Below, piece by piece: positions 170 to 23,476 of a stretch of 23,476 bases of DNA. Source of the stretch: a virus; IMG/VR virus record IMGVR_UViG_3300042890_001101, positions 1 to 23,476 of that record; one strand, 5' to 3'. The notes under the pieces were generated by a model that was given only the letters and a program-made list of their open reading frames with translations, did no database searches and had not been told where the DNA came from. Position numbers and translations under genes: made by a program. Numbering within the stretch: position 1 is the first letter of the stretch; every line of letters begins with the position of its first letter.

Positions 170-490
170 ATTTATTGTATATGTTTTTCCCTCAAACTTA
201 AATGAGGATATGTTATCGTATGTTAATGTTCTCCATCCTTCTCTTGTAGTAGGTGCAACTAAGTTCACCATACCTTCTTCTGCTTTAGTTTCACTTTGGT
301 CAGAATTACTATAAAACTTTCCCCAATACACTTCATATGATGCTCTATGTGTTGGTGCTATTGCAGTTCTCCATTTTACAAACATAGGATTACTTGCAGT
401 GCTTCGTTTAAGCATATTCTTAAACTTAACCATTGATACTGATGGTAAAGCAAACTTTTGTAAATTCTTTATGTAAGTATCACTATTCAT
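167..490 (-). CDS. Small protein of unknown function, 107 aa
   Basis: This small protein follows the prohead protease and overlaps its end by 8 nt (AATGAATAG contains the start of one gene and the stop of the other), so the two are probably translationally coupled. The N-terminal half is basic and helical in character. The C-terminal third, around GWRTLTYDNISSFKFEGKTY (residues 85-104), has the pattern of a small beta-barrel with alternating aromatic and polar residues. I recall similar short C-terminal segments in other phage proteins but cannot name a family. It has no signal peptide, membrane segment or catalytic motif. A minor structural or assembly role is inferred from its position. Confidence 0.75.
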   Translation of the reverse strand: MNSDTYIKNLQKFALPSVSMVKFKNMLKRSTASNPMFVKWRTAIAPTHRASYEVYWGKFYSNSDQSETKAEEGMVNLVAPTTREGWRTLTYDNISSFKFEGKTYTIN

Positions 491-1553
491 TTCCTAACAA
501 TGCTGGTGCAATGATTAAATTCTTTTTATCTTTCTTTTTTGCAGGTTCTCCTGCATAACTGCTTCCTGGAATAGAAGGCATTGTTTCCGTTTCCGTTAAC
601 AAACCTAATTGTCTTAATTTATTTCTGCTCCATCCTAATGCTGCTTTGCCGCCCCATGCATCATACATCAATTTACCACATCCGTCTCCGTATGCAGTTG
701 ATGTTTCCAAATCTTTTTCATGTCTACTTAAAAAAGAATACATTCTCTTTATAGTATCTACACTAATAGGTTCTCCTTTTGCCAATTGGGATGCTCGTTG
801 CTTACCAACAGGAGTTCCACATGAACCCCATCCATTCTTATCTACATAGTCTAATACTCTTTTAGCATTTCCTTTTACACCATCCGGGTAGTCTGAATAA
901 CTTTCCATGTCTATTCTCTTACCACCTCTATATCTGCTATCTTTACGAATTGTATTTTTGATATAAGATAAAACTACATTAGCTTCTGCTTCTGATAATT
1001 CATTGATATCTTTTAATAGTATATCTTCTTTACTAGCTTCAACTAATTTGTGTTCAAATAAACCTTCAATAGAAAATCCTTTCACTTTACCTGTTTTCAC
1101 ATAGTCTTTCCAAATCTTCTCATCAGCAACTTTAAACATTCCCATCCAAGCTCCTTCAGGGACATTTAAGCCATACACATTACTCTTATCTAATTTCCCT
1201 TCTTTAATCCAACTCTCAACTAAATGAACTTTTCCATTTATAGACTCATCATGTTCCAAAGTAGCCTTATCGTTATACTTCTTCATTAAATAGTTTTGAG
1301 CAACCTTCTTAACCGTTTCTTTTGACAGAAACACATTATATGGTTGTCCTTCACCATCTATTCTTAATATCTTTTTATCAGGTATTAAAATAGGCCCAAT
1401 TAACATTCTTTGTTCATTGTCTACTGCTGCAAAAAGAGTTTCTTCTTTACCAAAGGCAATCCAATCCATTTCTATTGCAGGACTTTCTACCAATGATATA
1501 GCAAACACTTCATCAACACCTTCTTCTTCAACCTTTAATTCAAATAGTTTCAT
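483..1553 (-). CDS. Prohead serine protease, XkdF/S78_2-like, with extra C-terminal domain
   Basis: This is probably the head-maturation protease that trims scaffold and capsid proteins in the prohead. The N-terminal 165 residues fit the XkdF-like peptidase S78_2 pattern: a beta-rich start (residues 50-78), a Glu-His-Asp motif with candidate catalytic His101, a VESW motif (112-115), GAWMGMFKV (134-142) and a GFSIEG motif with candidate nucleophile Ser161. Residues about 219-315 form a second conserved domain: DYPDGVKGNAKR, NGWGSCGTPVGKQRA, then a C-G-K-L segment and a DAWGG motif near 298-302. I recall this domain in other phage head-protease genes, but its function is unknown to me. The gene lies downstream of the tape measure, far from the capsid and scaffold genes. 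A weak copy of the module's promoter-like element (1555-1588) precedes the ATG. Confidence 0.85.
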   Translation of the reverse strand: MKLFELKVEEEGVDEVFAISLVESPAIEMDWIAFGKEETLFAAVDNEQRMLIGPILIPDKKILRIDGEGQPYNVFLSKETVKKVAQNYLMKKYNDKATLEHDESINGKVHLVESWIKEGKLDKSNVYGLNVPEGAWMGMFKVADEKIWKDYVKTGKVKGFSIEGLFEHKLVEASKEDILLKDINELSEAEANVVLSYIKNTIRKDSRYRGGKRIDMESYSDYPDGVKGNAKRVLDYVDKNGWGSCGTPVGKQRASQLAKGEPISVDTIKRMYSFLSRHEKDLETSTAYGDGCGKLMYDAWGGKAALGWSRNKLRQLGLLTETETMPSIPGSSYAGEPAKKKDKKNLIIAPALLGNE

Positions 1554-1554
1554 A

Positions 1555-1588
1555 TAGTAAAAACATTATTATTTCAAAAAATCATTAT
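1555..1588 (-). promoter_or_regulatory. Promoter-like bipartite element, weaker copy
   Basis: On the minus strand ATAATGAT (6 of 8 positions match ATAACTAT) is followed after exactly 13 nt by AATGTTTTTACTATATG, which runs into the start codon of the protease gene. Spacing and box order match the three strong copies near 13600, 16150 and 21030. It overlaps the tape measure stop codon. If it is a promoter its start site would be at or past the ATG, so the role is less certain here. Confidence 0.4.
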
Positions 1589-3348: not shown

Positions 3349-3482
3349 AATCTTCGTTTAATGTTTTTACCCAAATCTTTCCAAGTTGTAGGAATTTGAT
3401 ATTTTCCTTTTGCTATATCAACTCTTTCAGAAATACCATAATGGTTTCCTGAATTCAAAATGCTTATTATTATTGGTATCAT
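3324..3482 (-). CDS. Small basic protein, 52 aa, overlapping the tape measure start
   Basis: An ATG at 3482-3480 opens a 52-codon frame that ends at TAA 3326-3324, inside the first codons of the tape measure gene (25-nt overlap). The product starts MIPIIISILNSGNHYGISER and continues with a basic region, KGKYQIPTTWKDLGKNIKRR. It fills an otherwise empty 173-nt gap, has natural-looking amino-acid use, and its start sits directly behind a promoter-like element (3485-3517). Overlapping small genes upstream of tape measures often belong to tail assembly, but I cannot assign a family. The frame could also be a non-coding leader. Confidence 0.55.
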   Translation of the reverse strand: MIPIIISILNSGNHYGISERVDIAKGKYQIPTTWKDLGKNIKRRLWPIRKSK

Positions 3483-3484
3483 AT

Positions 3485-3517
3485 ATTAAAAACAACTTTA
3501 TTGTAATAAATAAGTAA
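3485..3517 (-). promoter_or_regulatory. Promoter-like element before the small gene and tape measure
   Basis: The minus strand carries GTTGTTTTTAATATATG directly at the start codon of the small gene. At 13-nt spacing upstream lies a degenerate first box, TTACTTAT (5 of 8 matches to ATAACTAT). The second box is a strong match and the first is weak. It sits in the gap between the second hub gene and the tape measure unit, where a new transcript would make sense. Confidence 0.4.
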
Positions 3518-4957: not shown

Positions 4958-6967
4958 ACAGAAGAAACCACTTCCATATCCTATCACTCCATTTATTCTA
5001 TTGATTTCAATTATTTCAGCACCTGAATATGTTTCAACAAAATAAAAATATCCAGTCACAGGAGATGAAGCATATCTATCAAAATATAAAACCTCACCTT
5101 GCGTTAATGTTCCTGAAACTGTGTATACATCAAATATCGATGCAGCAGAACATGCATAAATTGGATTAGATGATGGTGAAAGTATCACTTGACCCGCATA
5201 GAATGTAGTAGGTGTAGGGTTTATACCACTAACACTTCCAGATAAACCTGTTCCTGCAATTCTAATCAATGGGTCTGATGCAAATGTAGTTTTTACATTA
5301 TACTCACCTTGTGAATAGAAATTAGTAGTGTCAATATAATATTGCTTACCATATTCTCTATTTGCCTGTTTACTAAATTGTTGAGATATATAATCAGTAT
5401 CTAAAGTATCTCCAAAGTTTAATTTATTAACTGCAAGGTTATTTGCAGGAATTACTTCTATATTTTTATCTAAGTTAATGTATTTATTAAAATCTTTTAC
5501 TTCACCTCTCTTATAAAAATCATTAAATGTTTCAATTATAAATTCATTTAATTTAGTTTTATTAGGATAGATTACTAAGTTAAACTTTCTTTGTAATCCT
5601 AATATAAAATCAATCTGTTTAATACCTGTTGTTCCATATGGCATATTAGAAGGTATATCCATTATTCTACCATCAGCAGCCTGTTTAACTTCTTTAATTT
5701 CTATAAAAGATTTAGTTGTTCCTTGTGGGTCTAATGTCACAAGTGGTTGAACAGTTGGTGGTGCATTATTTGGTGATTGTCTTATTTGAAAATAATAACT
5801 ACCAGATGGAATAGTATTGAATTTAAACTCACTTGCTAATTCATATGTTGTATTGATACCACCAGTCCTACTTTGTTGTAATTGGTCAAAGAAATTAATA
5901 TACGATGATACTGCTTGTGTAGAATAAGGTGTTAAACTACCTGTCTCTAACATTCTTAACTGCCATGTTCCATTTGCAGAAAGTGTACCTGGCATATTAT
6001 TTACCGAGCAACTTACATTGATATTTATGTTTAATGCACCTTTTAAGTTAGTCGTTTTCTCAACTGTATATGCACCATTATTGTAAAAGTTTTGTGGGTC
6101 AGATAATTTATTATACCAAGGTAAAGTTGTCCAACTACCAGATGCTAATGTTATGTCTGTCATACCACTACCTGATACTGCACCTACTTTTATTTTACCA
6201 TATGTTTCTAAATCAATACCACTAAACTCAGGATATTTTAATCCATAATTACAAACCATATAAACATCATCTAAAAATGCTTGGTTCATAAATGAAGATG
6301 AGTATGTGTATCCTGCTTCTGCAAATATTGCATCTAATACAGGTTTAACTCTAATTGCAGGTTTGAAGTTTTGAACACATAATGCACCATCTTGGTCATC
6401 TACACCAAATAAATTCAATGCACCTTGTGTGAATGTATATCCACTACCATAATCGGCAAGTGGATAAACTATATCTCCATTAAATAAATTTCCACTCCAA
6501 CTTGCTGTAATATTTTCGTAAGATGCAGTGTGATTGTATTGTGAAAGAGAAGTTAAGTCAGTCAAAAAGTTTCTATTAATATCTCTACCAAAAGAGGAAA
6601 GAGTTCCATAAACAGTTACTTCGTATGAGTCAATAAATTTATTTGCAATTACATTTACTTTATTTAATTGAATGTATCCATTTGCAAGATAAACTGAGTC
6701 AAAATCAAAATATGCAGGAACTTTTATATTCGTTGCAAATAAAAATGGATTTTGAATACTAATATCGTATACATGTTCAAAGAATGCATTATTTACTTTT
6801 GTTCCAGGCAGAGTAATCTGTCTTGTAAAGTCAGATGGCAATTGTCCTATGTCAAATAAACCAGTTACATTATTTGATAATTTTATATCTTCATCTTCAA
6901 ATATATCTAACTGTGTTCCGTTTGCTATTAATCTAAAAGTAAATGCTTGAGTAGAAATTATTCCCAT
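4955..6967 (-). CDS. Tail hub / tail-associated baseplate-type protein
   Basis: This is a large tail-tip protein, probably the hub at the end of the tail tube. The N-terminus has the signature I associate with hub proteins of Bacteroidota phages: DIFEDEDIKL (21-30), FDIGQLPSDFTRQITLPGTK (38-57) and a following NN-x2-FF-x-H motif. A middle beta-rich region has few recognisable motifs. Residues about 434-525 (KQIDFILGLQRKFNLVIYPN and the following segments) again fit the hub family. The last 66 residues (Cys606 to the terminal Cys670, with NGVIGYGSG near the end) form a small domain shared with the next gene, 3522-4943. The upstream gene's stop and this start overlap by one base (TAATG), so translation is probably coupled. 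The hub appears divided between this gene and the next. Confidence 0.82.
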   Translation of the reverse strand: MGIISTQAFTFRLIANGTQLDIFEDEDIKLSNNVTGLFDIGQLPSDFTRQITLPGTKVNNAFFEHVYDISIQNPFLFATNIKVPAYFDFDSVYLANGYIQLNKVNVIANKFIDSYEVTVYGTLSSFGRDINRNFLTDLTSLSQYNHTASYENITASWSGNLFNGDIVYPLADYGSGYTFTQGALNLFGVDDQDGALCVQNFKPAIRVKPVLDAIFAEAGYTYSSSFMNQAFLDDVYMVCNYGLKYPEFSGIDLETYGKIKVGAVSGSGMTDITLASGSWTTLPWYNKLSDPQNFYNNGAYTVEKTTNLKGALNININVSCSVNNMPGTLSANGTWQLRMLETGSLTPYSTQAVSSYINFFDQLQQSRTGGINTTYELASEFKFNTIPSGSYYFQIRQSPNNAPPTVQPLVTLDPQGTTKSFIEIKEVKQAADGRIMDIPSNMPYGTTGIKQIDFILGLQRKFNLVIYPNKTKLNEFIIETFNDFYKRGEVKDFNKYINLDKNIEVIPANNLAVNKLNFGDTLDTDYISQQFSKQANREYGKQYYIDTTNFYSQGEYNVKTTFASDPLIRIAGTGLSGSVSGINPTPTTFYAGQVILSPSSNPIYACSAASIFDVYTVSGTLTQGEVLYFDRYASSPVTGYFYFVETYSGAEIIEINRINGVIGYGSGFFC

Positions 6968-11926: not shown

Positions 11927-13213
11927 TTATTTGTATATTTCGTATTCTTTTGATAAAATTGTTGGCATCTTAAATCTTTGTGGTTCTGCATCCGGTATTG
12001 GTTCATTCACTACTGCATCCGTATTATCTTCTGTTGTAGCAGGATTTTCCATACTATCGTTAGTCTCATCTTCTACTTGCTCAATTGATTTACCAGTTTC
12101 TTCTGCAGTTTGAGAAAGAATTACTAACGGAGTTAATTGTTCAAAGTATAATTCAGTATCGTTATATCCAGAACATGCTAATGCATAATCTAAAGTATTT
12201 AAAATTAAATTTTGGAAAGGTGCAATAGTCATTGTTTGCATGATACTAAATGCAGTCTTCATTTCTTCTGATTGTGAACTGAAACCATTGTTTTTTGTTC
12301 TAATACCAAATAATAAAGGTGAGGTTACTCTATGTGCAACTAATATTCTATCTTGAACATATTCTGCAACATAATCATACTTCTCATGTAAGTTTTCTAC
12401 ATTAATTGTGTCGATTGTAGGTTTAGTAGTCACATCATCGTTGAATGAAACCATAAATCTACCTGCGTTATCCGTTCCTGTAAACTTAGCCTGTATCAAA
12501 TCTTCAATAGTTTCTCTTTCTTCAGGTGCAGGAACTCCATTATTAAAGTTAATCATTACTGCTGGTAAGAAACCATTGGTAATGTTATTAAAGTGTAAAT
12601 TAGAGATTTCACCATCAGACATTGCTAATTGTAAAGCTGATATCCAATCAGGTAGGGAATAATAATATAAACCTGGACAATAATTCTTAATGTAAAGTAT
12701 TTCCATCTTTTCATTACTGGTTTCAAATGCAGGTATTTTCTTTTTATCTCTTACCTTTTTCATATCATTCCAATCTGTGCAATAATAGTAATTTTCTATC
12801 TTTGGACTACCATAAAGTTTTTCAGCACGAAGTGTTTGAACTGGAACATGATACATTTTTTTAATCTTTGTATGTGTCTCATCCCAATATACTTGAAATG
12901 CTGCATTACCAAATAACTTTAAGTCAAATGATACTTTCTTCAATTCTTCTTGTGGTAAAAGTTTATTTAGAATTTCATTGAATGGTTCATTCTTAGAATA
13001 AATTCCTTTACCATATATTAAATCTGCAATACCTTCTACCGATGCTGCATTAGTTGTTGATACATTGAACGCTGATATAATTGCATCAAAAAAATCATCT
13101 TGTCCATAAACACCAAAAGGCACCCATGTATAACGAGTTTTAGTATCCTCTTGAATTATAGGAAGTTGATTATTGTTTACATTTACTATTGCGAAGTTTT
13201 GTTTCCCTTTCAT
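11927..13213 (-). CDS. Portal protein
   Basis: The portal forms the twelve-subunit ring at one capsid vertex through which DNA is packaged. The 428 residues fit the HK97-type portal pattern: FNVSTTNAASVEGIADLIYG (49-68) for the wing start, LKKVSFDLKLFGNAAFQVYW (91-110), the clip-and-stem region near NLHFNNITNGFLPAVMINFN (205-224), a segment with QDRILVAHRVTSPLLFGI (287-304), and the helix with FSSQSEEMKTAF. The last 60 residues are acidic and disordered. It starts one base after the previous gene's stop (TAATATG at 13217-13211) and ends with the same junction to the adaptor. The gene lies after the capsid and tail tube genes, whereas portals usually come right after the terminase. Confidence 0.85.
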   Translation of the reverse strand: MKGKQNFAIVNVNNNQLPIIQEDTKTRYTWVPFGVYGQDDFFDAIISAFNVSTTNAASVEGIADLIYGKGIYSKNEPFNEILNKLLPQEELKKVSFDLKLFGNAAFQVYWDETHTKIKKMYHVPVQTLRAEKLYGSPKIENYYYCTDWNDMKKVRDKKKIPAFETSNEKMEILYIKNYCPGLYYYSLPDWISALQLAMSDGEISNLHFNNITNGFLPAVMINFNNGVPAPEERETIEDLIQAKFTGTDNAGRFMVSFNDDVTTKPTIDTINVENLHEKYDYVAEYVQDRILVAHRVTSPLLFGIRTKNNGFSSQSEEMKTAFSIMQTMTIAPFQNLILNTLDYALACSGYNDTELYFEQLTPLVILSQTAEETGKSIEQVEDETNDSMENPATTEDNTDAVVNEPIPDAEPQRFKMPTILSKEYEIYK

Positions 13214-13214
13214 A

Positions 13215-13586
13215 TTAGTTATAGATTATATACTTGTTCTCACTTTCATGTGATGTTATTGGCGGTATTTGGTTTTCGTATTCTGATTTTTCTGCAGTAG
13301 TTGGTTTATATACTTGGAATGTTCCTCTCCATATATCTACACTGCCTGATGGTGTTCCATTATATAGAACTGCACGATATTCATCGCCTGGAAATGTTCC
13401 AGAAATACTGGCAGTAAATCCAATATAACTTTCATAACCTTCGTATGTAATACCACTTAATGATGCGGTAAATGTATTTAAACCCATCATATCAGTCAAA
13501 GACATTGTGAATTCGTTTAATGTAGATGCCGTAGGTTGTGTTCTAAAGGTATATGAGTTGCTCTGTGATATATAATAACTCTGCAT
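13215..13586 (-). CDS. Beta-rich structural-type protein, 123 aa, function unknown
   Basis: A 123-residue protein rich in Tyr, Ser, Thr and Gly, made mainly of short beta strands: ESYIGFTASISGTFPGDEYR (51-70) and VDIWRGTFQVYKP, ending with SHESENKYIIYN. I recall short proteins of this type beside the portal in Bacteroidota phages, but I know no function. It opens the portal-to-hub transcription unit, directly behind a terminator and a strong promoter-like element. The start ATG at 13586 is 14 nt past the end of that element. An early role in neck or capsid decoration is possible but not shown. Confidence 0.75.
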   Translation of the reverse strand: MQSYYISQSNSYTFRTQPTASTLNEFTMSLTDMMGLNTFTASLSGITYEGYESYIGFTASISGTFPGDEYRAVLYNGTPSGSVDIWRGTFQVYKPTTAEKSEYENQIPPITSHESENKYIIYN

Positions 13587-13600
13587 TATCTATGTTTTAT

Positions 13601-13635
13601 ATAATAAAAACAATGCATTTGGTAAAAATAGTTAT
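13601..13635 (-). promoter_or_regulatory. Strong bipartite promoter-like element
   Basis: The minus strand has ATAACTAT, exactly 13 nt, then ATTGTTTTTATTATA. It begins only a few bases after the U-tract of the terminator at 13641-13670 and lies 14 nt before the next ATG. The boxes and the 13-nt spacing match the elements at 16134-16167 and 21015-21048. It does not fit the Bacteroidota TTTG / TAnnTTTG consensus. A phage-specific promoter is likely. Confidence 0.6.
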
Positions 13636-13640
13636 GAAAC

Positions 13641-13670
13641 AAAAAAACCCCACTCAAAAGAGTAGGGTTT
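13641..13670 (-). terminator. Rho-independent terminator after the tail tube gene
   Basis: On the minus strand AAACCCTACTC, a TTTT loop, then GAGTGGGGTTT form an 11-bp stem (one G-U pair), and seven T follow the C/G part. It lies 25 nt past the stop of the tail tube gene and directly before a promoter-like element, so it likely ends the capsid and tail tube transcripts. Confidence 0.85.
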
Positions 13671-13694
13671 CAATATTTTAATTCACAATATTAA

Positions 13695-14255
13695 TTATGA
13701 ACCGTAAACAATAGTTGGTTGAACCGATAAACCTGCAAAAGGGTTATTTACTGTGCTTCCAGATAAGAAGTAAGCTGGTTCTTTCTCCAAACCTGTAAGA
13801 GTTACTGAATAACCGAAAAGGTCACCCAATGCTCCACCTGTTTGAATAGTTCCTGCAGTTACATCACATCCTTCTTTGTTACCAATAAGTAATGCTTCAC
13901 CATTCATAGTCCAAACTACAACCTTGGGACGCCCGTATGCCATAAGTTTAAGCTGCGTAGTCATCTCGTTAGTCAACTTCTTTAAGTTTAATGTCAATTC
14001 TTGTTGGAAGAATGTTGTTCCATTCTCTCTAGAAGAGTTAACTGTTTCTGTGTAAGAAGAATTGCCTTTAAGTTCATAATAATAAACCGAACTACCTGAT
14101 GGATTGTTTAATGCTGTTACCAAATCGTTAGAGTCAGTTGCTGCAGATGCAGTGTAATAGTTTATAAAGTATACACCTTGTAAACCACCAACACTTTCTT
14201 TACATACTTCCTTTCTACCTGCTGATAATACGCATTGTCCTGATGTGTAAGCCAT
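13695..14255 (-). CDS. Major tail tube protein
   Basis: This is the likely major tail tube subunit, found in many copies in the tail. The 186 residues are mostly beta: the N-terminus carries CVLSAGRKEVCKESVGGLQG (8-27), followed by VYFINYYTAS and a strand-rich middle including TTFFQQELTLNLKKL (80-94). The C-terminal GCDVTAGTIQTGGALGDLFG (128-147) and YSVTLTGLEKEPAYFL (148-163) are a pattern I associate with tail tubes of Bacteroidota phages. Terminator hairpins stand on both sides (14278-14308 and 13641-13670), as expected for a highly expressed single-gene transcript. No promoter-like element was seen between the first terminator and this start, so expression may rely on read-through. Codon usage looks similar to the capsid gene. 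Confidence 0.82.
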   Translation of the reverse strand: MAYTSGQCVLSAGRKEVCKESVGGLQGVYFINYYTASAATDSNDLVTALNNPSGSSVYYYELKGNSSYTETVNSSRENGTTFFQQELTLNLKKLTNEMTTQLKLMAYGRPKVVVWTMNGEALLIGNKEGCDVTAGTIQTGGALGDLFGYSVTLTGLEKEPAYFLSGSTVNNPFAGLSVQPTIVYGS

Positions 14256-14277
14256 GTTATTATTATTTAGTTTGTTA

Positions 14278-14308
14278 TTAAAAAGGGTGAGTGTTTAACC
14301 CACCCTTT
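14278..14308 (-). terminator. Rho-independent terminator after the major capsid gene
   Basis: The minus strand has AAAGGGTG with three more pairs (GGT / ACT, one G-U), a TAAAC loop, then CACCCTTT followed by further T and AATAA. It lies 12 nt past the capsid stop. An 11-bp stem with a U-tract is a good terminator, though some read-through would be needed to reach the tail tube gene. Confidence 0.82.
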
Positions 14309-14320
14309 AATTAGTTTTTA

Positions 14321-15340
14321 TTAGTAAGCTCCGTAGTAAACGATGTCTTGACCGATACCAAACTGAACACCAGCAGTGTATCTCATGATAATTCTATAAT
14401 TTTGAGAACCATCAATGTTAGCCATATCAATTACTTTAACCTCGTTCATATCGCTTAAAAGGCCGGTTCCAAAGAACAAATTGCTCTTTTGTGCTGCAAC
14501 GATTTTGTTGTCAGACATACCAGGACATAATACGATATCAATACCATTAAAGTTGTATGGTTTTTCACCAATTACAAATTGATTTTGGTAACCATTCGCA
14601 CCCACGTTAGCCAATGTAGTACCTGTTGAAGTTAAACCAGCAGTTGCTAATTGGTATTCTTTTGCTACATTTGTTCCTACATAGATAACTAAGTCTTGCT
14701 TACCATATACAGTTGTAGGGATAGTTTCAACTACTGATTGTAATTTTTGGATTACATTCGCTGAAGTTACACTACCAGATATGATTGCAGAACCACTACC
14801 TGTTAATCTTGCAGGTAAAACTGAGTCAGCTGCAGCTAATGCTACTGAAGCAGAGAATAATGTTTCAAAACCAGAGAATTGACCATTTGTTGCAGTGTCA
14901 CCTTGCCAAATAGATTGTTCAACAGCTTGAGCCACATTACCACCAACATAAGAGATTAAGAAGTCGTTAAAGTTCTTAGGGATTTCGTCAAATGCAGAGA
15001 AACCTAATTGTAAAGCTTCCCATGATTGAACGAATTGTTGCTTACATAATTGTAAGTTAACTTGGAATTCTTCTGGAGTTAAAACTCTTTCAGAGATTGA
15101 TGCAGTTGCAGTTGCGTTAAAGTCACAAGATGCATCTGAAATCAAAGAGGATAAAGCAAGTTTTTGGATTACGCTCTTAAATTTTACATTAGGCATAATC
15201 GTTACTAACTTCTTATCCAAAGTGTTTGCCGATAAAAGGGCAGCCGCAATATAGCCTGATGCCGCCTCACCTGCGTAGGTAGAGTTTCCGGTAGGGCCAA
15301 TGCCTTCTGGCATTGTTGCGAATTTTTGAATTTTGTTCAT
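14321..15340 (-). CDS. Major capsid protein (HK97-fold type)
   Basis: The major capsid protein builds the icosahedral head. It has 339 residues, normal for this type. The N-terminus is flexible and Gly/Ala-rich (TYAGEAASGYIAAALLSANT, 21-40), then comes a segment TIMPNVKFKSVIQKLAL. The middle has ERVLTPEEFQVNLQLCKQQF (84-103) and FSGFETLF. The P-domain-like part includes LVIYVGTNVAKEYQLA, and the C-terminus has YRIIMRYTAGVQFGIGQDIV (316-335). I recall this layout in capsid proteins of Bacteroidota phages, and the HK97 fold is inferred. The gene follows the acidic scaffold-like gene and is ended by a terminator. The leader before the ATG is A-rich (AAAAAACAAAAAACG). Confidence 0.88.
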   Translation of the reverse strand: MNKIQKFATMPEGIGPTGNSTYAGEAASGYIAAALLSANTLDKKLVTIMPNVKFKSVIQKLALSSLISDASCDFNATATASISERVLTPEEFQVNLQLCKQQFVQSWEALQLGFSAFDEIPKNFNDFLISYVGGNVAQAVEQSIWQGDTATNGQFSGFETLFSASVALAAADSVLPARLTGSGSAIISGSVTSANVIQKLQSVVETIPTTVYGKQDLVIYVGTNVAKEYQLATAGLTSTGTTLANVGANGYQNQFVIGEKPYNFNGIDIVLCPGMSDNKIVAAQKSNLFFGTGLLSDMNEVKVIDMANIDGSQNYRIIMRYTAGVQFGIGQDIVYYGAY

Positions 15341-15369
15341 GTTAATTCGTTTTTTGTTTTTTAATATTT

Positions 15370-16116
15370 TTAATTATATAATCTTGATAAGAAAGAAGAC
15401 TGTGGGTCTTGTAATTTCTTACCAAAGTTTTTTCTGTTTGTTTCAAATTTCATAATAGAATTAGGGTCTTCGATTGGAGCACCATCTAATTTCGGTAACT
15501 CTTCTTCGTCAACTTCAGCCATTTTAATACCATCTATTTCTTGTGCTACTTCAGATGATAATGGTGGCATCATTGTTTCCATCATTTTCATTTTCTTTTC
15601 CATCTCATCGATACGATAAGCCATTTCTTCCATTTTCTTACCCATATCTACTTCTTTGTCTTCACCAGCTTCATCTTCTGCTTCAGCATCTTCAGGTAAA
15701 GTTTCAACTTCTTCAGTCTCTTCTTCCATCTTTAATGTTCCTGATTTAACTTGACCTTCTGAGTCTGGCATTACATTTTTCTTGTCTTCGTTGCCTACTG
15801 ATGGGATTGGTTTTTCTTCAATCATTTCTGCATCAGCGTCAGCCATTTCAACATTCTCTCTTTCTACAATCTTACCATCTTCTGTGATAACTTTCAAAAG
15901 AGTTTCATTACCTTCTGTATCTTTCAACATTAAGTCATGTGTTCCGTTAGGTGCTGGGGATTTAGTTCCATCTTCAGAAACTACAAAAAGTTCTTCACCT
16001 ACATCGAATGTTTTACTTTCTACGATTGTTCCGTCTGCTAATTTAGCATAAGTTAATTCAACTTCGTTAGTTGATAAAAACTCTACAATCTTATTTAATA
16101 CATTTTTAGCGTTCAT
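15370..16116 (-). CDS. Acidic scaffold-like protein
   Basis: A 248-residue, highly acidic protein directly before the capsid gene, the usual place for a scaffold. Residues 21-85 form a repeated beta domain with LADGTIVESKTFDVGEELFV and EDGKIVERE. Residues about 90-155 are a Glu/Asp-rich disordered linker. Residues 158-184 are a coiled coil very rich in Met (KMEEMAYRIDEMEKKMKMME). The C-terminus is basic and ends FLSRLYN, a probable capsid-binding tail. I have seen proteins with a repeated 'DGT/EDGK' N-terminal domain, an acidic middle and an 'SR' tail next to Bacteroidota-phage capsid genes. No protease motif is visible; the candidate protease is at 483-1553. A strong promoter-like element precedes the gene. 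Confidence 0.75.
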   Translation of the reverse strand: MNAKNVLNKIVEFLSTNEVELTYAKLADGTIVESKTFDVGEELFVVSEDGTKSPAPNGTHDLMLKDTEGNETLLKVITEDGKIVERENVEMADADAEMIEEKPIPSVGNEDKKNVMPDSEGQVKSGTLKMEEETEEVETLPEDAEAEDEAGEDKEVDMGKKMEEMAYRIDEMEKKMKMMETMMPPLSSEVAQEIDGIKMAEVDEEELPKLDGAPIEDPNSIMKFETNRKNFGKKLQDPQSSFLSRLYN

Positions 16117-16133
16117 ATTTTTTTGGTTTATAT

Positions 16134-16167
16134 TATTAAAAACAATGTTTTTTAGTTTTATAGTTAT
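16134..16167 (-). promoter_or_regulatory. Strong bipartite promoter-like element
   Basis: The minus strand has ATAACTAT, 13 nt, then ATTGTTTTTAATA. It lies in the gap between the propeller stop (16177) and the scaffold ATG (16116), 17 nt before the latter. Boxes and spacing equal those at 13601-13635 and 21015-21048. It would drive scaffold and capsid genes. Confidence 0.6.
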
Positions 16168-16176
16168 TTTTTTGTG

Positions 16177-17319
16177 TTATAATCCTTTTCCACTTGTCAT
16201 AATTGGATTTGCTGCACCAATTGAAGAGAATGTGGTATTATTTGGTAAATATGTTACATAAGCCCCTCTACCAGAATTATTTTGTCCTGGCATATTAATC
16301 AATCTACCATCTGATAATGAAAAAAGGTCTTGATATCCCCTACTCGTTGTCATACCGGTAAGTGCAACATTTGTTTTATAACCAGCACCTGTGGTTGTAT
16401 TATACCCATATATACCGCTACTTGTGCCGGTAACTTGTCCTACTATATCTCCATTTTGTCCTATACAAAGACCGGTATTATATCCAAAATTAGTTCCTGT
16501 TTTAGTTTCAATTGATTTATTTACAGGATTTATAATGTAAATATTTATGTTACTAGAACCTAATGCACAAACTGCAACATTACCATTTGGTAAGTTTACA
16601 GGTCCATATCCAGTATTTCCAACTAATGTTCCAAAATAACTACCTGAGTCGGTTATTGTATTGTATTCGTATATTGAATTATTTGTTGCTGCAGCTTCTC
16701 TTGCAAAGTATATAGTTCCAACCGAAGTTAAACATGCTCCCCAAAATCCTCCACCGGTAGCTATACCAAGTGTTACAGATGATGTAGTTGATGTATTTGC
16801 AACTAAATCAAATATGGCTACTCTAGTAGAAGCATTAACACTAACCAAAGGCATAGCATATGCTTTACCACCAAATGCAACTACTGCAGGATATTGACTT
16901 CCTTGATTTGTTGGAACTGATATTGAAGCAGATACCGCTAGATTGGCACAACTTATTTTCACAAATGCACTACTTCCACAAATTACCCAACTATTAGTTA
17001 CATTATCCCATACAACATTTCTGACCGTACCAGGAGAATGACTACCATGCGTAGTCATAGTATCAGTATTAGCATCCCACTTATAAACAGTTCCACCACT
17101 TTCAGATATTCCCAATATTTGATTATCAGGTCCCATTCCCCATCTCATAATCGCATTAATAGCTGCCGCACTGAATGATGCAGAAGTATATAAAGATGAA
17201 GTTACTGAATAATTTGAATATGCAGCAAATGCTTCAAAACTCTCCGGAATAAAATCCAAAGTGGAGAGTGATGAACTTTGTGGAAAATCTATATTATCTA
17301 CTGCTATTGGTGCAAACAT
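16177..17319 (-). CDS. Beta-propeller-like protein, putative receptor-binding protein
   Basis: A 380-residue protein with repeated strand units that look like propeller blades: a Tyr/Phe/Ile-x-x-Asp/Asn core repeated as VYKWDANTDTM, VAIFDLVANTSTT, SIYEYNTITDSG, IYIINPVNKSIET and IYGYNTTTGAGYK, with phrases such as LPNGNVAVCA and GQNGDIVGQV between them. Six or so blades are likely. I chose the ATG at 17319 (MFAPIAVDN), one base after the fibre stop (TAATATG). A longer frame to 17376 would overlap the fibre. The N-terminal FAPIA segment matches that of the LamG-like protein at 8594-9325, which also follows a fibre. I infer a tip protein that binds the host surface. Propeller folds also serve in enzymes and scaffolds, and no catalytic motif is visible here. 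Confidence 0.7.
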   Translation of the reverse strand: MFAPIAVDNIDFPQSSSLSTLDFIPESFEAFAAYSNYSVTSSLYTSASFSAAAINAIMRWGMGPDNQILGISESGGTVYKWDANTDTMTTHGSHSPGTVRNVVWDNVTNSWVICGSSAFVKISCANLAVSASISVPTNQGSQYPAVVAFGGKAYAMPLVSVNASTRVAIFDLVANTSTTSSVTLGIATGGGFWGACLTSVGTIYFAREAAATNNSIYEYNTITDSGSYFGTLVGNTGYGPVNLPNGNVAVCALGSSNINIYIINPVNKSIETKTGTNFGYNTGLCIGQNGDIVGQVTGTSSGIYGYNTTTGAGYKTNVALTGMTTSRGYQDLFSLSDGRLINMPGQNNSGRGAYVTYLPNNTTFSSIGAANPIMTSGKGL

Positions 17320-17320
17320 A

Positions 17321-20300
17321 TTATGATAAGTTTTTAACTTGTGCTGCGAATATTTGTGTTGTATCAAATGTAACAAATGATACTAAATCTTGTGATGCAG
17401 TAATTTGTGTTGGTGTGTAATCAAATCCACCAGCAAATTTAAATGTTGGTGAGAATGTTAAACTACCAGATGCTGCTGCCGAACCACTCGCCATTTTAAC
17501 TAATAAGTTAATTGTTTGACCAGCTTTAATATTTGCTGCAGTTAAGTGTGTGATACTTCCTGATACTAATTGTAGTGTAAAGAAGTTACCATTATTAAAA
17601 TCTAATGATGCAGTATTTGATGAAATACTTAATGAATTAACCAATCCACTAACACTACCTGTTACTCCTAAACTACCTGTAATTTGTGCACTACCTGTAT
17701 AAGGGAATGCAGCACCTCCTCCACCTCCACCACTACCAGTATCAACTGTCAATGCAAATGTAGAATTATCACCTTTGGTAAATGTAATTGTGTTAAGATT
17801 TACCGATGCGGTTTTTAAATTCAATGAAGTTGATGTAAATAAACTTGCAGTTGCAGTATTTAAATTACTAATAGAGATTAATGCAGATGCACTAAATGTT
17901 TCTAAATTAGCAGTTTCAATTAGTAAACTTGCAGTAGTTGTTTCAATGTTATTCAATCTACCATCAGTAGAAGAAGTATATGCGTTGAATGAAGAAGTAG
18001 TCGTATAACTTCCAGTTGCTGCAATTAAACTATTTACCTTTTGGTCGTTAGATGCAGTATATGAATTGAATGATGCACTACTTGCAAATGAAGCAGTAGT
18101 TATTTCAACTGGTTGATTAGTTGTTCCACCTACCCACATATATCCTGTATCTAAACCTGGTAATTGAGCAGGACCTGGATTTAATACTAATCCTTTTCCA
18201 CCACTACCACCTTTAGTTATTACACCTAATAATTGAGTAATTGAATTACTTCCTGACGGTAAGTTAAGTGAATATCCTCCACCTTCTGCTACATATATTG
18301 TTTGTCCTGCTGCATAGCCTGTCAAATCTATTCCTTCTATTAAACCTAATACAATTGCATTTGTTGTGTTTGCTGCTCCAATAGTTTCATTTGATATAAA
18401 TGTCACAGGCATTTTAGCCGGATTACTTGCATCTGCTTTATAAACAATTGGGTTAGCACCTTGTGAGCCCGAAATATATAATGGGTCTCCTTTAGTTATA
18501 TTCTCACCTGTATAAACTACTTCAATTACCGTTGTTCCTGCACTGCCACTAACATCAGGAATAACTACACCAAATGTAGTTCCGTTGCCTTTTGTAAATG
18601 TTAAAGTATTTCCTGCAAATGATGCAGTAGTTAAACCTAAACTTGCAGAAGTAAATAAACTTGCAGTTGCAGATTGTAATGAAGCAGTAGCTGAATTTAA
18701 ATTACTTATTGAAGTTAATGCAGATGCACTAAATTGATTTAAGTTATCGATTGATGTTACTAATGATGCAGTTGATTGAGATGCAGTAAATGTGTTTAAT
18801 GCAGTTATTGATATATTAACACTTGCACTATTCGTTTCTAATGAACTAACTCTTTGGTCATTACTTTGTGTATAAGCATTGAATGATGCAGTTGTTGCAA
18901 AACTACCAGTATCTATTGGTGTTGATGCTACACTTACATTAAATGTAGATGCATCACCCTTTGTAAAAGTTATTGTGTTACCTACTGCAGATGCAGTTAT
19001 TAATGAACTTGCAGTGATTGCAGATGTTGCATAAGATGCAGTTGCGTTAATTAAACTATTTACTTTATCATCATTAGATTGTGTATATGCATTAAATGAA
19101 GCAGTTGTAACTAAACCACTAATATCAACAGATGAAGTCAATACAGGTGTTCCATTAACTGTCAAACTACCTTGCACTTTAACACTACCTGAAAGAGTTT
19201 GTATGTCTGATAACTCATCTCCGAACTGGTTACTACCTGAAGAGTATATTATACTTGAAGTTTCGTATGTCGTTTGAACATATGTAAATGATGCAGATAC
19301 TGCAGTTATGTTTGTGAATGTTTGATTTGCAGTAAAGTTATTATCTACATTTGTTCTTGCAAAAGAAGCAGTCTCACTTTCTGTAACATAAGATGATGTT
19401 GCAGAGTTTAATGAGTTTATTGATACTTCTGCAGATTGAGTGAATTGATTTATATTAGTTACCGATGTATTTAAACTTTGAGTAGTCGTATTCAAATTAC
19501 TTATCGATACCAATGCAGATGCACTAAATGTATTTAATTCGTTTATTGAATTTACTATACTTGCAGTTGATTGTGAAGCAGTGAATGTATTTAAAGCACT
19601 TACCGATGTATTTAAACTTGCAGTAGTTGTATTGATATTAGTGATAGATGTATTAACACTAGCGCTATTTACTTCTAAACTACTTACTCTCTGGTCGTTA
19701 GATGATGTATAAGAGTTGAATGATGCAGTTGTTACAAAGTTACCCGTTGAACCGGTCACATCAGGAATGTTTACACTAAATGTAGTTGTATCACCTTTTG
19801 TGAATGTTAAGTTTCTTGTGCCTGTATTAAACGATGCAGTAGTCAATGATAAACTAGTAGAAGTAAATAAAGATGCAGTTGCAGTATTTAAATTACTTAA
19901 TGATGTTAATGCAGATGCAGAAAACAATTCTAAGTTTTGTGTTTCAATTAAAAGACTTGCAGTCGTTGTATTCAAATTATTAATACTAATCTGTTGAGAT
20001 GCAGATGATTGATTTAAATTAGCTACTGATGTGAATAAACTTGCAGTTGCTATTTCTAAACTAGTTACTTTATTTGATATCGCAGTATTGTATATCTCTT
20101 GTGATGCAGTAAATGAATTTAATTCAGTAATTGAGTTTACTATACTTGCAGTCGATTGTGATGCAGTATATACATTTAATGCATTTATACTAATCTGTTG
20201 AGATGCAGAACTTGCATTCAATTGAGATATAGATGATGAAGCACTTTGAGTAAATTGATTTGTAGATGAAGTAAATGCATTAAAAGATGCAGTCGTTACT

Positions 20301-20710
20301 AACCCAGCACCTTCTATGTTTACTTGCACTACGGCAGTTCCTGCAATAACTTGTGCAGATATAGCACTACCTGTAAAGTTCATTGATGTAGCAAATCCTT
20401 GCAATACACCCTCATCTAATATAGGTAATGCAGTAGATGCAGTTATGTTTGTTAATTTAGAACCATCACCTATAAAGTTACTTGCAGATACAAATGCAGA
20501 TGCAGATATAGAAGTAAAATTATTTGTTTGAGTGAAGTCGTTTGTAATATCCGTTCTAGCAAAACTACCTGTATCTAAACTATCTACAAGTGTGTCAATT
20601 ACATTTGTATTGTAATCACGCAAAACTTGTGGAGTAATTAGTTGTGAGTTATTATTCGGAAACGATGATGAGTTTGCCGCTTGTAATTGTGCTTTAGTTA
20701 ATATAGCCAT
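17321..20710 (-). CDS. Large tail fibre protein
   Basis: A 1129-residue fibre, the largest gene in the window. The N-terminus has LITPQVLRDYNTNVIDTLVD (24-43) and a SNFIGDGSKLTNITAS motif (77-92), common in phage fibres. Most of residues 120-700 are Ser/Thr/Asn heptads such as SLNTSVS or ALNTFTA, almost free of charge. Four units with TFTKGD/N and a TF turn, and several F-N-x-Y/F-T units, divide them. Residues about 730-865 form a beta-rich globular domain beginning VIEVVYTGENITKGDPLYIS. A Gly6 linker follows near 1000, and the last 110 residues are a domain shared with the second fibre (SLSISS, NGNFFTLQLVSGS, GQTINL, VSFVTFD, VKNL). The leader is ATTAAAAATAAATAACTGAT before the ATG. The propeller protein starts one base after its stop. 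Confidence 0.85.
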   Translation of the reverse strand: MAILTKAQLQAANSSSFPNNNSQLITPQVLRDYNTNVIDTLVDSLDTGSFARTDITNDFTQTNNFTSISASAFVSASNFIGDGSKLTNITASTALPILDEGVLQGFATSMNFTGSAISAQVIAGTAVVQVNIEGAGLVTTASFNAFTSSTNQFTQSASSSISQLNASSASQQISINALNVYTASQSTASIVNSITELNSFTASQEIYNTAISNKVTSLEIATASLFTSVANLNQSSASQQISINNLNTTTASLLIETQNLELFSASALTSLSNLNTATASLFTSTSLSLTTASFNTGTRNLTFTKGDTTTFSVNIPDVTGSTGNFVTTASFNSYTSSNDQRVSSLEVNSASVNTSITNINTTTASLNTSVSALNTFTASQSTASIVNSINELNTFSASALVSISNLNTTTQSLNTSVTNINQFTQSAEVSINSLNSATSSYVTESETASFARTNVDNNFTANQTFTNITAVSASFTYVQTTYETSSIIYSSGSNQFGDELSDIQTLSGSVKVQGSLTVNGTPVLTSSVDISGLVTTASFNAYTQSNDDKVNSLINATASYATSAITASSLITASAVGNTITFTKGDASTFNVSVASTPIDTGSFATTASFNAYTQSNDQRVSSLETNSASVNISITALNTFTASQSTASLVTSIDNLNQFSASALTSISNLNSATASLQSATASLFTSASLGLTTASFAGNTLTFTKGNGTTFGVVIPDVSGSAGTTVIEVVYTGENITKGDPLYISGSQGANPIVYKADASNPAKMPVTFISNETIGAANTTNAIVLGLIEGIDLTGYAAGQTIYVAEGGGYSLNLPSGSNSITQLLGVITKGGSGGKGLVLNPGPAQLPGLDTGYMWVGGTTNQPVEITTASFASSASFNSYTASNDQKVNSLIAATGSYTTTSSFNAYTSSTDGRLNNIETTTASLLIETANLETFSASALISISNLNTATASLFTSTSLNLKTASVNLNTITFTKGDNSTFALTVDTGSGGGGGGAAFPYTGSAQITGSLGVTGSVSGLVNSLSISSNTASLDFNNGNFFTLQLVSGSITHLTAANIKAGQTINLLVKMASGSAAASGSLTFSPTFKFAGGFDYTPTQITASQDLVSFVTFDTTQIFAAQVKNLS
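17655..20290 (-). repeat. Internal low-complexity repeats of the fibre gene
   Basis: The coding sequence holds many short related units rather than exact tandem repeats: the ACTGCATC-type codon string for Thr-Ala-Ser, the F-N-x-Y/F-T unit, and the TFTKG unit at about 19785-19820, 18935-18990, 18560-18610 and 17750-17800. They encode heptads and beta turns of the shaft. Such stretches can recombine with one another or with the second fibre. Confidence 0.7.
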
Positions 20711-20728
20711 ATCAGTTATTTATTTTTA
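20711..20728 (-). promoter_or_regulatory. A-rich stop-to-start translation leader
   Basis: The minus strand has ATTAAAAATAAATAACTGAT before the ATG of the large fibre and contains the upstream TAA. It shares ATTAAAAATAAA with the leaders at 10531-10548 and 155-169. Confidence 0.5.
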
Positions 20729-21001
20729 ATCAATTTCAAATCCATCGCTAAATCCAAAAGAGAATGCCCCTAAGTCTTGTGGTATAAATGGAACACCTTG
20801 TATTACACCTATTCCTTGTGACATTAACGCACCTTTACAACACTTCACATCATAAGTATCACTATGCACACATAGACATGCTCTTCTGCTATTCTTAGGA
20901 CTTGATAGACCTCTAGTTGGCCCTATGTATATACCCGAGTTATTCTCACGATTAACCGAGTATCTTAAATTACCATTACGACTATTAGACCATCTTCCCA
21001 T
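20726..21001 (-). CDS. Small Cys-rich structural-type protein, 91 aa
   Basis: A 91-residue protein with a compact Cys motif: Cys42-x-Cys44 in RRACLCVHSDTYD and Cys54-Cys55 in VKCCKGALMSQGIGVIQG. The N-terminus, MGRWSNSRNGNLRYSVNREN, is basic and Arg/Asn-rich. I recall similar short proteins with a 'C.C....TY...CC.G.L..QGIG' core in Bacteroidota phages, often beside fibre or hub genes. Their function is unknown to me. The four Cys could bind a metal or form disulfides. The gene lies 14 nt behind a strong promoter-like element and leads into the large fibre, so it may be a small attachment protein of the fibre. It has no signal peptide or membrane segment. Confidence 0.75.
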   Translation of the reverse strand: MGRWSNSRNGNLRYSVNRENNSGIYIGPTRGLSSPKNSRRACLCVHSDTYDVKCCKGALMSQGIGVIQGVPFIPQDLGAFSFGFSDGFEID

Positions 21002-21014
21002 TGTGGATTTCTTT

Positions 21015-21048
21015 TATTAAAAACAATCCAATCCTAAAATATAGTTAT
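21015..21048 (-). promoter_or_regulatory. Strong bipartite promoter-like element
   Basis: The minus strand has ATAACTAT, 13 nt, then ATTGTTTTTAATA, 13 nt before the ATG at 21001. The first box overlaps the TAA (21047-21045) that ends the -1 frame of the chaperone gene. It would drive the Cys-rich protein, fibre and propeller genes. Confidence 0.6.
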
Positions 21049-21978: not shown

Positions 21979-23145
21979 TTAATACTTTACATTTCCTATT
22001 GTGATAGCATACTTACCTTTCGTTGTTGCCTTCTGTGTTAGTTTCATCATTGCAACATACCTAGCAGCATCCAGTAAGTGGTCTAAACCTGACTCTGGAT
22101 TATCGGTAGTGTATCCGTATTTGTCCGATGCATATTGATAAGCATACATCTCATTAACTAAATTGGTTGATGATTTAAGTATGTGTATATTATAATTCTG
22201 CATGACTGATATACCAAACTTAATACTATCAGGTCCTTTCTTAACAGGTTTTGCATTAAATCCACTTCTATATAATTCCTCTACGCTTCTCGGTTCTGAA
22301 CTATCACACCATATCTCATAAGACTTATCTATGTCTTTTTTATTTAGTGCAGTTATTATATCGTTCATTACTAATCCTCTTTCATACAATACCTCTTCCA
22401 AATACAAATCATTACCATTCTTATAAACAGCAACTACTGCAGTTGGGTCTTGTGAATAACCCCAATCTAATCCGAATGCAACAAAGTCTGCTTCAAAGTC
22501 ATCAACGATGTCAAACTTATAGATTGCTTTTTCATTTGCAGCAAACTCACCTTTACCATAGATTAAATACTTTTTAGGTGATGTGAATTGTAAATCCTCA
22601 ATTGCTTTAACCATTTCTTTTGGTATGTAAGGATTGTCTTTGTATGTTGTAACAAATCTCTCACAATCTTGCATTTGTCTTAACCAATTAAAGGGACTTA
22701 CCGTAGGATTGTATGCAAGTATTATCTTACCTGTTGTTCTAATACTTAGCTGAAAATAACTTTCCTCATCTATCTCACTTGCCTCATCTATAAAGAGTAT
22801 GTCTGATTTTAAACCTCTTAACTTCTCAGGGTCATCAGAATTAATAAACTGAACTAAACTATCTTGCAACTTATAAGTTCTATCACTTACATTCCAATTA
22901 TCATCACGCCATACATCAATTGATTTAAGTATGTCAATGAAATCTTTTATAACTGTTCTCTTTGTTGATGGTATAGTTCTTCTAACAATAGTAATGGTTT
23001 GTGCCTCTCTAATTGCTTCAACGATAAGATACTGCAAGATACCAAATGTTTTACCACTTCTAGTCCCGCCGATATGATGCGTAACTCTATGTTTACTATC
23101 TACTAAATGTTGAAATGTAATTGTAGTATTAATCTCTATGTTCAC
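21979..23145 (-). CDS. terL: Terminase large subunit
   Basis: The large terminase is the ATPase and nuclease motor that packages DNA through the portal. The 388 residues hold the full set of motifs: Walker A GGTRSGKT (26-33), Walker B ILFIDEASE (116-124) with the catalytic Glu121, a coupling motif LAYNPT (143-148), and an RNase H-like nuclease domain starting at FGLDWG (224-229, Asp227), with Asp281 (WCDSSEP) and a late LLDAARY (357-363, Asp359) as the likely metal ligands. The pattern fits the Terminase_3/Terminase_3C (PBSX-type) group. It overlaps the small subunit gene by 17 nt and is followed by TAATATG into the next gene. Family length and motifs are normal, and no frameshift is seen. 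Confidence 0.96.
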   Translation of the reverse strand: MNIEINTTITFQHLVDSKHRVTHHIGGTRSGKTFGILQYLIVEAIREAQTITIVRRTIPSTKRTVIKDFIDILKSIDVWRDDNWNVSDRTYKLQDSLVQFINSDDPEKLRGLKSDILFIDEASEIDEESYFQLSIRTTGKIILAYNPTVSPFNWLRQMQDCERFVTTYKDNPYIPKEMVKAIEDLQFTSPKKYLIYGKGEFAANEKAIYKFDIVDDFEADFVAFGLDWGYSQDPTAVVAVYKNGNDLYLEEVLYERGLVMNDIITALNKKDIDKSYEIWCDSSEPRSVEELYRSGFNAKPVKKGPDSIKFGISVMQNYNIHILKSSTNLVNEMYAYQYASDKYGYTTDNPESGLDHLLDAARYVAMMKLTQKATTKGKYAITIGNVKY

Positions 23146-23428
23146 TATCTGCTCTGTTTATATTAATACTTACCTGTTGTATTCTATGGTCTATCTCTCC
23201 ACTAATCTCCATTGATGATTTCTTTGGCACAATATACTCTAGCAATTTTAAATAAAGCTTTGCTGCTTCTGTTGGATTGTCCTTTCTTATCTTATCAAAG
23301 TCCTCCATTATATTATCTAATCCTCTATTTGCCAATCTAGCAATAGTTAATTTTGCCTGTTCGGTGCTTCTATTCAAAGAACCTGGCTTTCTTCCACCTA
23401 ATTTATTTCCTACTTCAAACTTTCCCAT
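23129..23428 (-). CDS. Terminase small subunit-like protein
   Basis: A 99-residue basic protein upstream of the large terminase and overlapping it by 17 nt, the usual place of the small subunit that recognises DNA for packaging. The N-terminus has the GGRKPGSLNRSTEQAK motif (11-26), found in phage small terminase and DUF5681-like proteins. A helical middle (LANRGLDNIMEDFDKIRKDN, 32-51) and KLYLKLLEYIVPKKSSMEIS (62-81) follow. It is short for a small terminase, and no clear helix-turn-helix is visible. The start ATG at 23428 lies 38 nt behind a truncated T-rich box at the window edge. It could instead be a packaging accessory protein. Confidence 0.75.
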   Translation of the reverse strand: MGKFEVGNKLGGRKPGSLNRSTEQAKLTIARLANRGLDNIMEDFDKIRKDNPTEAAKLYLKLLEYIVPKKSSMEISGEIDHRIQQVSININRADSEHRD

Positions 23429-23465: not shown

Positions 23466-23476
23466 TATTAAAAACA
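23466..23476 (-). promoter_or_regulatory. Promoter-like second box, cut by the window edge
   Basis: The minus strand starts with TGTTTTTAATATATAG, which matches the second box of the elements at 21015, 16134 and 13601. The first box, expected about 13 nt further, lies outside the window. The site is 38 nt before the small terminase ATG. Confidence 0.35.

Follow-up and report, generated by a model that had tools for sequence, protein, structure and literature searches.

Two-box elements before late genes in a family of uncultured viruses: candidate late promoters for a phage-encoded ECF-type sigma factor

The window analyzed here, a 23.5-kb virus fragment (23,476 nt in full) with 33% GC, carries every gene on the minus strand: terminase genes, a unit of unknown function that includes a long repetitive protein, then capsid, portal, and tail genes and one resembling a head protease. 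A two-box element stands before several of these genes, and the locus raises the question of which factor reads it. The original prediction described the element as ATAACTAT-N13-ATTGTTTTTA, and our search recovered this pair as three exact copies on the minus strand (21048-21018, 16167-16137, and 13635-13605), together with the copy previously scored at six of eight matches (1588-1558) and the one described as weak (3516-3487). We restate the core consensus as TAACTAT-N15-TGTT(T/A)TTA; the sites in the window, and the terminator that had been placed directly before the 13601 site and was found there, are as follows.

Site A, 21018..21047, minus strand: TAACTAT (21047-21041), N15, TGTTTTTA (21025-21018); exact copy, with an ATG 16 nt past the box.
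Site B, 16137..16166, minus strand: TAACTAT (16166-16160), N15, TGTTTTTA (16144-16137); exact copy, before 15370-16116 and then the major capsid gene.
Site C, 13605..13634, minus strand: TAACTAT (13634-13628), N15, TGTTTTTA (13612-13605); exact copy, before 13215-13586 and the portal operon.
Site D, 1558..1587, minus strand: TAATGAT (1587-1581), N15, TGTTTTTA (1565-1558); the ATG of 483-1553 lies 4 nt past the box.
Site E (weak), 3487..3516, minus strand: TACTTAT (3516-3510), N15, TGTTTTTA (3494-3487); before a 52-aa ORF (3324-3482), and found also in the close relative G001.
TerS site, 23469..23476, minus strand: TGTTTTTA, cut by the window edge; its -35 box, TAACTAC with N16, is at L106:4867-4897.
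Intrinsic terminator, 13644..13671, minus strand (13671-13644 in gene direction): 12 pairs and a T tail, just upstream of site C.

The truncated copy noted at the right edge is real: the overlapping contig L106, which shares 99.95% identity with the window across 9,249 nt, completes it as TAACTAC-N16-TGTTTTTA, with a spacing of 16 rather than 15. The genes behind the sites are listed below.

Terminase small-subunit-like gene, 23129..23428, minus strand: named by its position before TerL; first gene of the TerS site unit, with weak PHROGs matches, all of unknown function.
Terminase large subunit (TerL), 21979..23145, minus strand: phrog_2, E 2e-34.
First gene behind site A, 20726..21001, minus strand: 91 aa, unknown.
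First gene behind site B, 15370..16116, minus strand: 248 aa, without a PHROGs match; precedes the major capsid gene and is, by position, probably scaffold-like.
Major capsid protein (MCP), 14321..15340, minus strand: phrog_11320 / phrog_1623; within the site B unit, without an element of its own.
First gene behind site C, 13215..13586, minus strand: 123 aa, followed by the portal gene (11927-13213).
First gene behind site D, 483..1553, minus strand: 356 aa, head maturation protease families phrog_34096 / phrog_3017.

Three other features of the window were observed. A terminator-like hairpin (14305-14289) lies directly after the major capsid gene and before the gene 13695-14255, which lacks a preceding element; this hairpin may set the ratio of capsid to downstream product. 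The region 17321-20710, which encodes a 1129-aa protein with internal repeats (stretches 80% identical by blast, approximately 2 kb apart), shows the greatest divergence between the window and G001. The previously unlisted 52-aa ORF at 3324-3482 overlaps the start of the 587-aa gene 1585-3348 and is conserved in G001; its end resembles a short ORF preceding a long gene in the Nonlabens phage P12024L, and it is possibly a tail chaperone-like gene.

With up to three mismatches allowed, the window contained five matches to the element against 0.27 expected, and none of 100 shuffles reached five, so that chance does not explain these copies. On the gene strand, each of the six TGTTTTTA boxes precedes a gene, and a three-mismatch match at 5795-5825 (+), antisense within a gene, is probably accidental. 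The proximity to start codons stood, but the range of 13-18 nt originally given did not hold generally: the box-to-ATG distance is 4 to approximately 30 nt. As had been claimed, the boxes lie outside the Bacteroidota TTTG / TAnnTTTG consensus; such boxes are absent at the three exact sites, and no TAnnTTTG -7 box was found between element and start. In the relatives described below, TTTG-N17-22-TAnnTTTG was rare and without strand bias, and the few host-type promoters found there formed no clear pattern. A sigma-70 promoter scan gave fewer matches than were obtained in shuffles.

A capsid search yielded 80 related viral contigs, and ten long relatives (301 kb) were taken for close analysis; this family of uncultured viruses probably infects Bacteroidota. 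When the gap was left free between 12 and 18 nt, all 39 matches, from 24 records, had a gap of 15, and the reversed control gave none. The ten relatives contained 30 box pairs at spacing 15 in the direction of the genes, none in reverse, and at most two at any other spacing. Whether the pair is as frequent inside genes as before them had been proposed as a test, and all exact copies in these ten relatives were intergenic and in gene direction; the one-mismatch forward copies with an intact second box were also all intergenic. Searches of bacterial genomes with the sigma and capsid profiles revealed no relative and no prophage. An Rfam scan found only tRNAs, in two relatives (L090:1294-1365, relative G004, and L096:1771-1841, G007); no tRNA gene was found in the window.

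Dozens of related viral contigs carry the element before these same late genes. Scored over distinct upstream regions per gene with up to two mismatches, it was present before 30 of 35 orthologous starts of the site A gene, 53 of 58 of the site B gene, 42 of 47 of the site C gene, and 9 of 12 of the site D gene; in the last case, the box-to-ATG distance was 4-5 nt in all nine. It was found before none of 33 orthologous MCP starts and before no orthologous portal, TerL, 13695, or 1585 start. In most relatives it stands before the first genes of units A-D and not before these other genes, and so the element marks unit starts. At these orthologous positions the element is conserved while the spacers are unrelated, which agrees with the earlier argument against simple duplication.

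A further copy of the element is followed by a conserved structured RNA of approximately 110 nt and not by an ORF, at the following positions.

L085:11523, minus strand: small-RNA element copy.
L086:12868, plus strand: small-RNA element copy.
L090:4146, minus strand: small-RNA element copy.
L095:11984, minus strand: small-RNA element copy.
L096:4370, minus strand: small-RNA element copy.
L110:1656, plus strand: small-RNA element copy.

The RNA consists of an outer stem, an inner stem, a GCU/AGC hairpin, and then a strong terminator, the loop of which often carries GUGCCAU. All 15 pairs were kept in five distinct sequences, and seven of them had changed on both sides. RNAalifold on the raw MAFFT alignment missed the outer stem owing to misaligned gaps, and a trimmed alignment recovered it. 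The RNA had no Rfam match; it is possibly a phage small RNA or a leader.

The candidate reader is encoded outside the window. In L106, a gene ending approximately 750 nt beyond the right edge of the window, just before the terminase genes, encodes a 182-aa ECF-type sigma factor with regions 2 and 4, which is conserved in relatives (182-194 aa) at a position matching that of the P12024L sigma gene before TerL. This is the layout of ECF (group 4) factors, which are short and contain regions 2 and 4 only. The sigma ORFs match Sigma70_r2, and ECF sigma models align to them across regions 2 and 4. The ECF profile TIGR02937 (cut-off 42.9) was scored in six family members: L086 (49.2) and L120 (44.8, aligned over 6-163 of 165) were above the cut-off, and L085, the closest of the six to the window's phage, was below it (28.7), as it was below the curated Pfam and NCBIfam cut-offs. 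Searching PDB sequences with the sigma profile gave no match. The AlphaFold model (pLDDT 81.5, pTM 0.43) contains seven helices, with H10-86 corresponding to region 2 and H105-176 to region 4; since the pTM is low, the fold match is supported by the individual domains rather than by their relative placement. Of the 17 highest-ranking PDB fold matches, nearly all were annotated as ECF sigma factors or their complexes, and none had another fold. The best was 6dv9_F (SigL, E 7e-4), followed by SigH, SigK, RpoE/sigma-E, and AlgU, mostly in initiation complexes. Phage ECF sigma factors were also among the fold matches, including those of P12024S and GAP52 (annotated "RNA polymerase ECF sigma factor"), the latter phage being a relative of the 7-11 group.

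The cultured Nonlabens phages P12024L and P12024S (Inhavirus) are distant relatives that share a capsid homologue (26% identity), an annotated, ECF-like sigma-70 region 2 gene (gp35) a few genes before TerL, and a late dyad with 15-nt spacing immediately before start codons. They differ in the dyad itself, AAACAA-N15-CGTTA, and in a distant sigma sequence: a tblastn comparison of the sigma with named phages gave no match, and the link to P12024 is through fold and position. In P12024L (L104), the exact dyad occurs six times, always on the gene strand, at spacing 15, and a few nucleotides before annotated genes; the other strand contained none at that spacing. The copies, which are unannotated in the published phage and abut start codons, are listed below.

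P12024L 146-180, gene strand: dyad.
P12024L 2998-3032, gene strand: dyad.
P12024L 5379-5413, gene strand: dyad.
P12024L 22058-22091, gene strand: dyad.
P12024L 25978-26012, gene strand: dyad.
P12024L 27579-27613, gene strand: dyad.

A seventh dyad, with spacing 14, lies just before 24771. The -10 box CGTTA is similar to the CGT box in one flavobacterial ECF motif (PMC9723704). Since only 5.5% of mRNAs are leaderless in the flavobacterial species with that motif (PMC9723704), the short distance from dyad to ATG would be predicted to be unusual.

Within a phage, the -10 box is uniformly TGTTTTTA or TGTTATTA: this held in 74 of the 75 contigs that carry at least two sites, against an expected mean of 29.6 and a maximum of 47 in 20,000 shuffles, although the shuffle test is only a first look because the contigs are kin. 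A genealogical comparison provides the stronger test. On a phylogeny of 57 sigma proteins, the T/A label switches a single time, along a branch whose SH-aLRT support is 97%. For the same rows, the site-A protein tree required eight changes against one on the sigma tree. The site-B tree required five against one, and the TerL tree nine against two, the extra sigma change being a "C" label; the two "C" labels in this comparison derive solely from the small-RNA site. An MCP tree built on an initial, smaller taxon set gave two changes against one, too small a difference to decide; the 5-9 against 1-2 given above come from the larger set. The pair G004 and G006 illustrates this pattern: they share 98% identity in the capsid, 95% in the portal, 96% in the site-A protein, and 65% in the sigma factor, and their -10 type differs at all four late promoters compared. 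At four loci, the promoter segments of G006 are 77-84% identical to those of G002 versus 67-80% to those of G004; its capsid-side flanks are nearer G004, as are most of its flanking genes. Sigma residues 66, 70, 74, and 162, as well as 27-28, divide by -10 type, a division that is confounded with sigma phylogeny. Residue 162 lies within the region 4 helix-turn-helix, and residues 66, 70, and 74 are at the start of the third region 2 helix, where -10 reading presumably takes place, as would be expected from solved ECF complexes.

Sigma gene and promoter type are thus inherited jointly. Among the readers originally offered, a phage-specific sigma factor is favoured, since an ECF-type sigma gene is present in the family and the -10 variant tracks the genealogy of this gene rather than that of flanking genes. 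Very probably, then, the elements are late promoters read by this factor, with promoter activity itself inferred. The sigma product would bind the host core RNA polymerase through regions 2 and 4, with region 4 reading the -35 box TAACTAT, whose AAC is characteristic of the -35 boxes of ECF factors, and region 2 reading the -10 box TGTT(T/A). Late in infection, the resulting holoenzyme would initiate at each unit in turn (packaging, head, and tail), with start points approximately 6-9 nt downstream of the -10 box, a distance known from phages 7-11 and phiEco32; the site D mRNA is therefore predicted to be leaderless or nearly so. A broader reading, which we advance tentatively and regard as slightly more doubtful than probable, is that sigma and promoters form one specificity module, or dialect, that structural cassettes move freely between dialects, that the promoters act as borders filtering recombinants, that many late mRNAs are leaderless, and that one promoter makes the structured small RNA.

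The main competing explanation is that a distinct phage activator binds the boxes and brings in host sigma-A polymerase, as do MotA/AsiA or RinA/Ltr, and that the sigma-like gene has some other role. On its own, a bipartite element upstream of late genes would fit an activator, the sigma gene occupies the RinA/Ltr position upstream of terS (PMC13123087), and the C-terminal helices of some sigma members have weak matches to phrog_36, "transcriptional regulator". However, a TAnnTTTG -7 box is missing between element and start, the two boxes are spaced like the -35 and -10 boxes of an ECF promoter, the protein has a sigma region 2 in which residues 66, 70, and 74 divide by -10 type, and the promoter type tracks the sigma gene; we therefore consider an activator improbable. 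A host ECF factor is less probable still. Flavobacteria possess ECF sigma factors, one of whose motifs has a CGT -10 box (PMC9723704), but a host factor gives no reason for the -10 type to switch with the phage sigma clade between phages of nearly identical structural genes.

The proximity to start codons, in Bacteroidota, which lack Shine-Dalgarno sites (PMC6847099), could instead suggest an RNA leader that aids translation initiation. This is hardly credible given an ATG distance that varies from 4 to approximately 30 nt at a fixed box spacing of 15, the absence of the element upstream of internal genes with high expression, MCP among them, and the conserved copy before a structured RNA without an ORF. 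Chance or local duplication might be suspected in a window of 67% AT, but the shuffles, the spacing histogram, and the conservation at orthologous positions with unrelated spacers refute it, leaving it a negligible probability.

The phage-encoded sigma factor thus remains the preferred reader. The analysis yields a concrete promoter class, a likely factor to read it, and a pair of naturally occurring specificity variants, set apart by a single base in the -10 box of their promoters. How small Bacteroidota phages control their late genes appears to be little described; no late promoter or late sigma factor was found in the open-access literature on these phages. Similarly, no description of a concerted exchange of sigma and promoters was found in the open-access literature searched. 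The joint switching of sigma and promoters in a recombining family is a natural experiment on regulator-site coevolution, the cultured pair P12024L/P12024S makes the system testable now, and the sigma/promoter pairs could become orthogonal expression tools in Bacteroidota. The kind of system is already known from phage 7-11 gp47; the present case was found in no Bacteroidota-phage paper.

Among known systems, the T4 late sigma factor gp55 directs the host core polymerase to late genes, as is proposed here; T4 late promoters, however, lack a -35 box and depend on gp33/gp45. RinA and Ltr of Firmicutes phages are likewise encoded upstream of terS and control packaging and structural genes, but they are activators of approximately 130 aa acting on a sigma-A-type promoter and are not region 2 sigma factors (PMC13123087), whereas the protein described here has 182 aa and region 2 matches. 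phiEco32 gp36 is a phage sigma factor for later genes, with starts 6-8 nt after its box; it differs in using a single box, tAATGTAtA, without a -35 box and in lacking region 4 homology (PMC8948821), whereas both boxes and both regions are present here. The closest described system is gp47 of phage 7-11, a phage-borne sigma factor that works with the host polymerase on bipartite late promoters (GTAAtg-(16)-aCTA), several of which precede late genes (PMC8948821). The two differ in their box sequences, share no close sequence kinship, and the present system, from a probable Bacteroidota host, is described by computation. The consensus GTAAtg-16-aCTA does not occur in our elements, which points to another specificity of a shared kind: as in phage 7-11, bipartite boxes at fixed spacing stand only before late genes in a phage with its own sigma factor.
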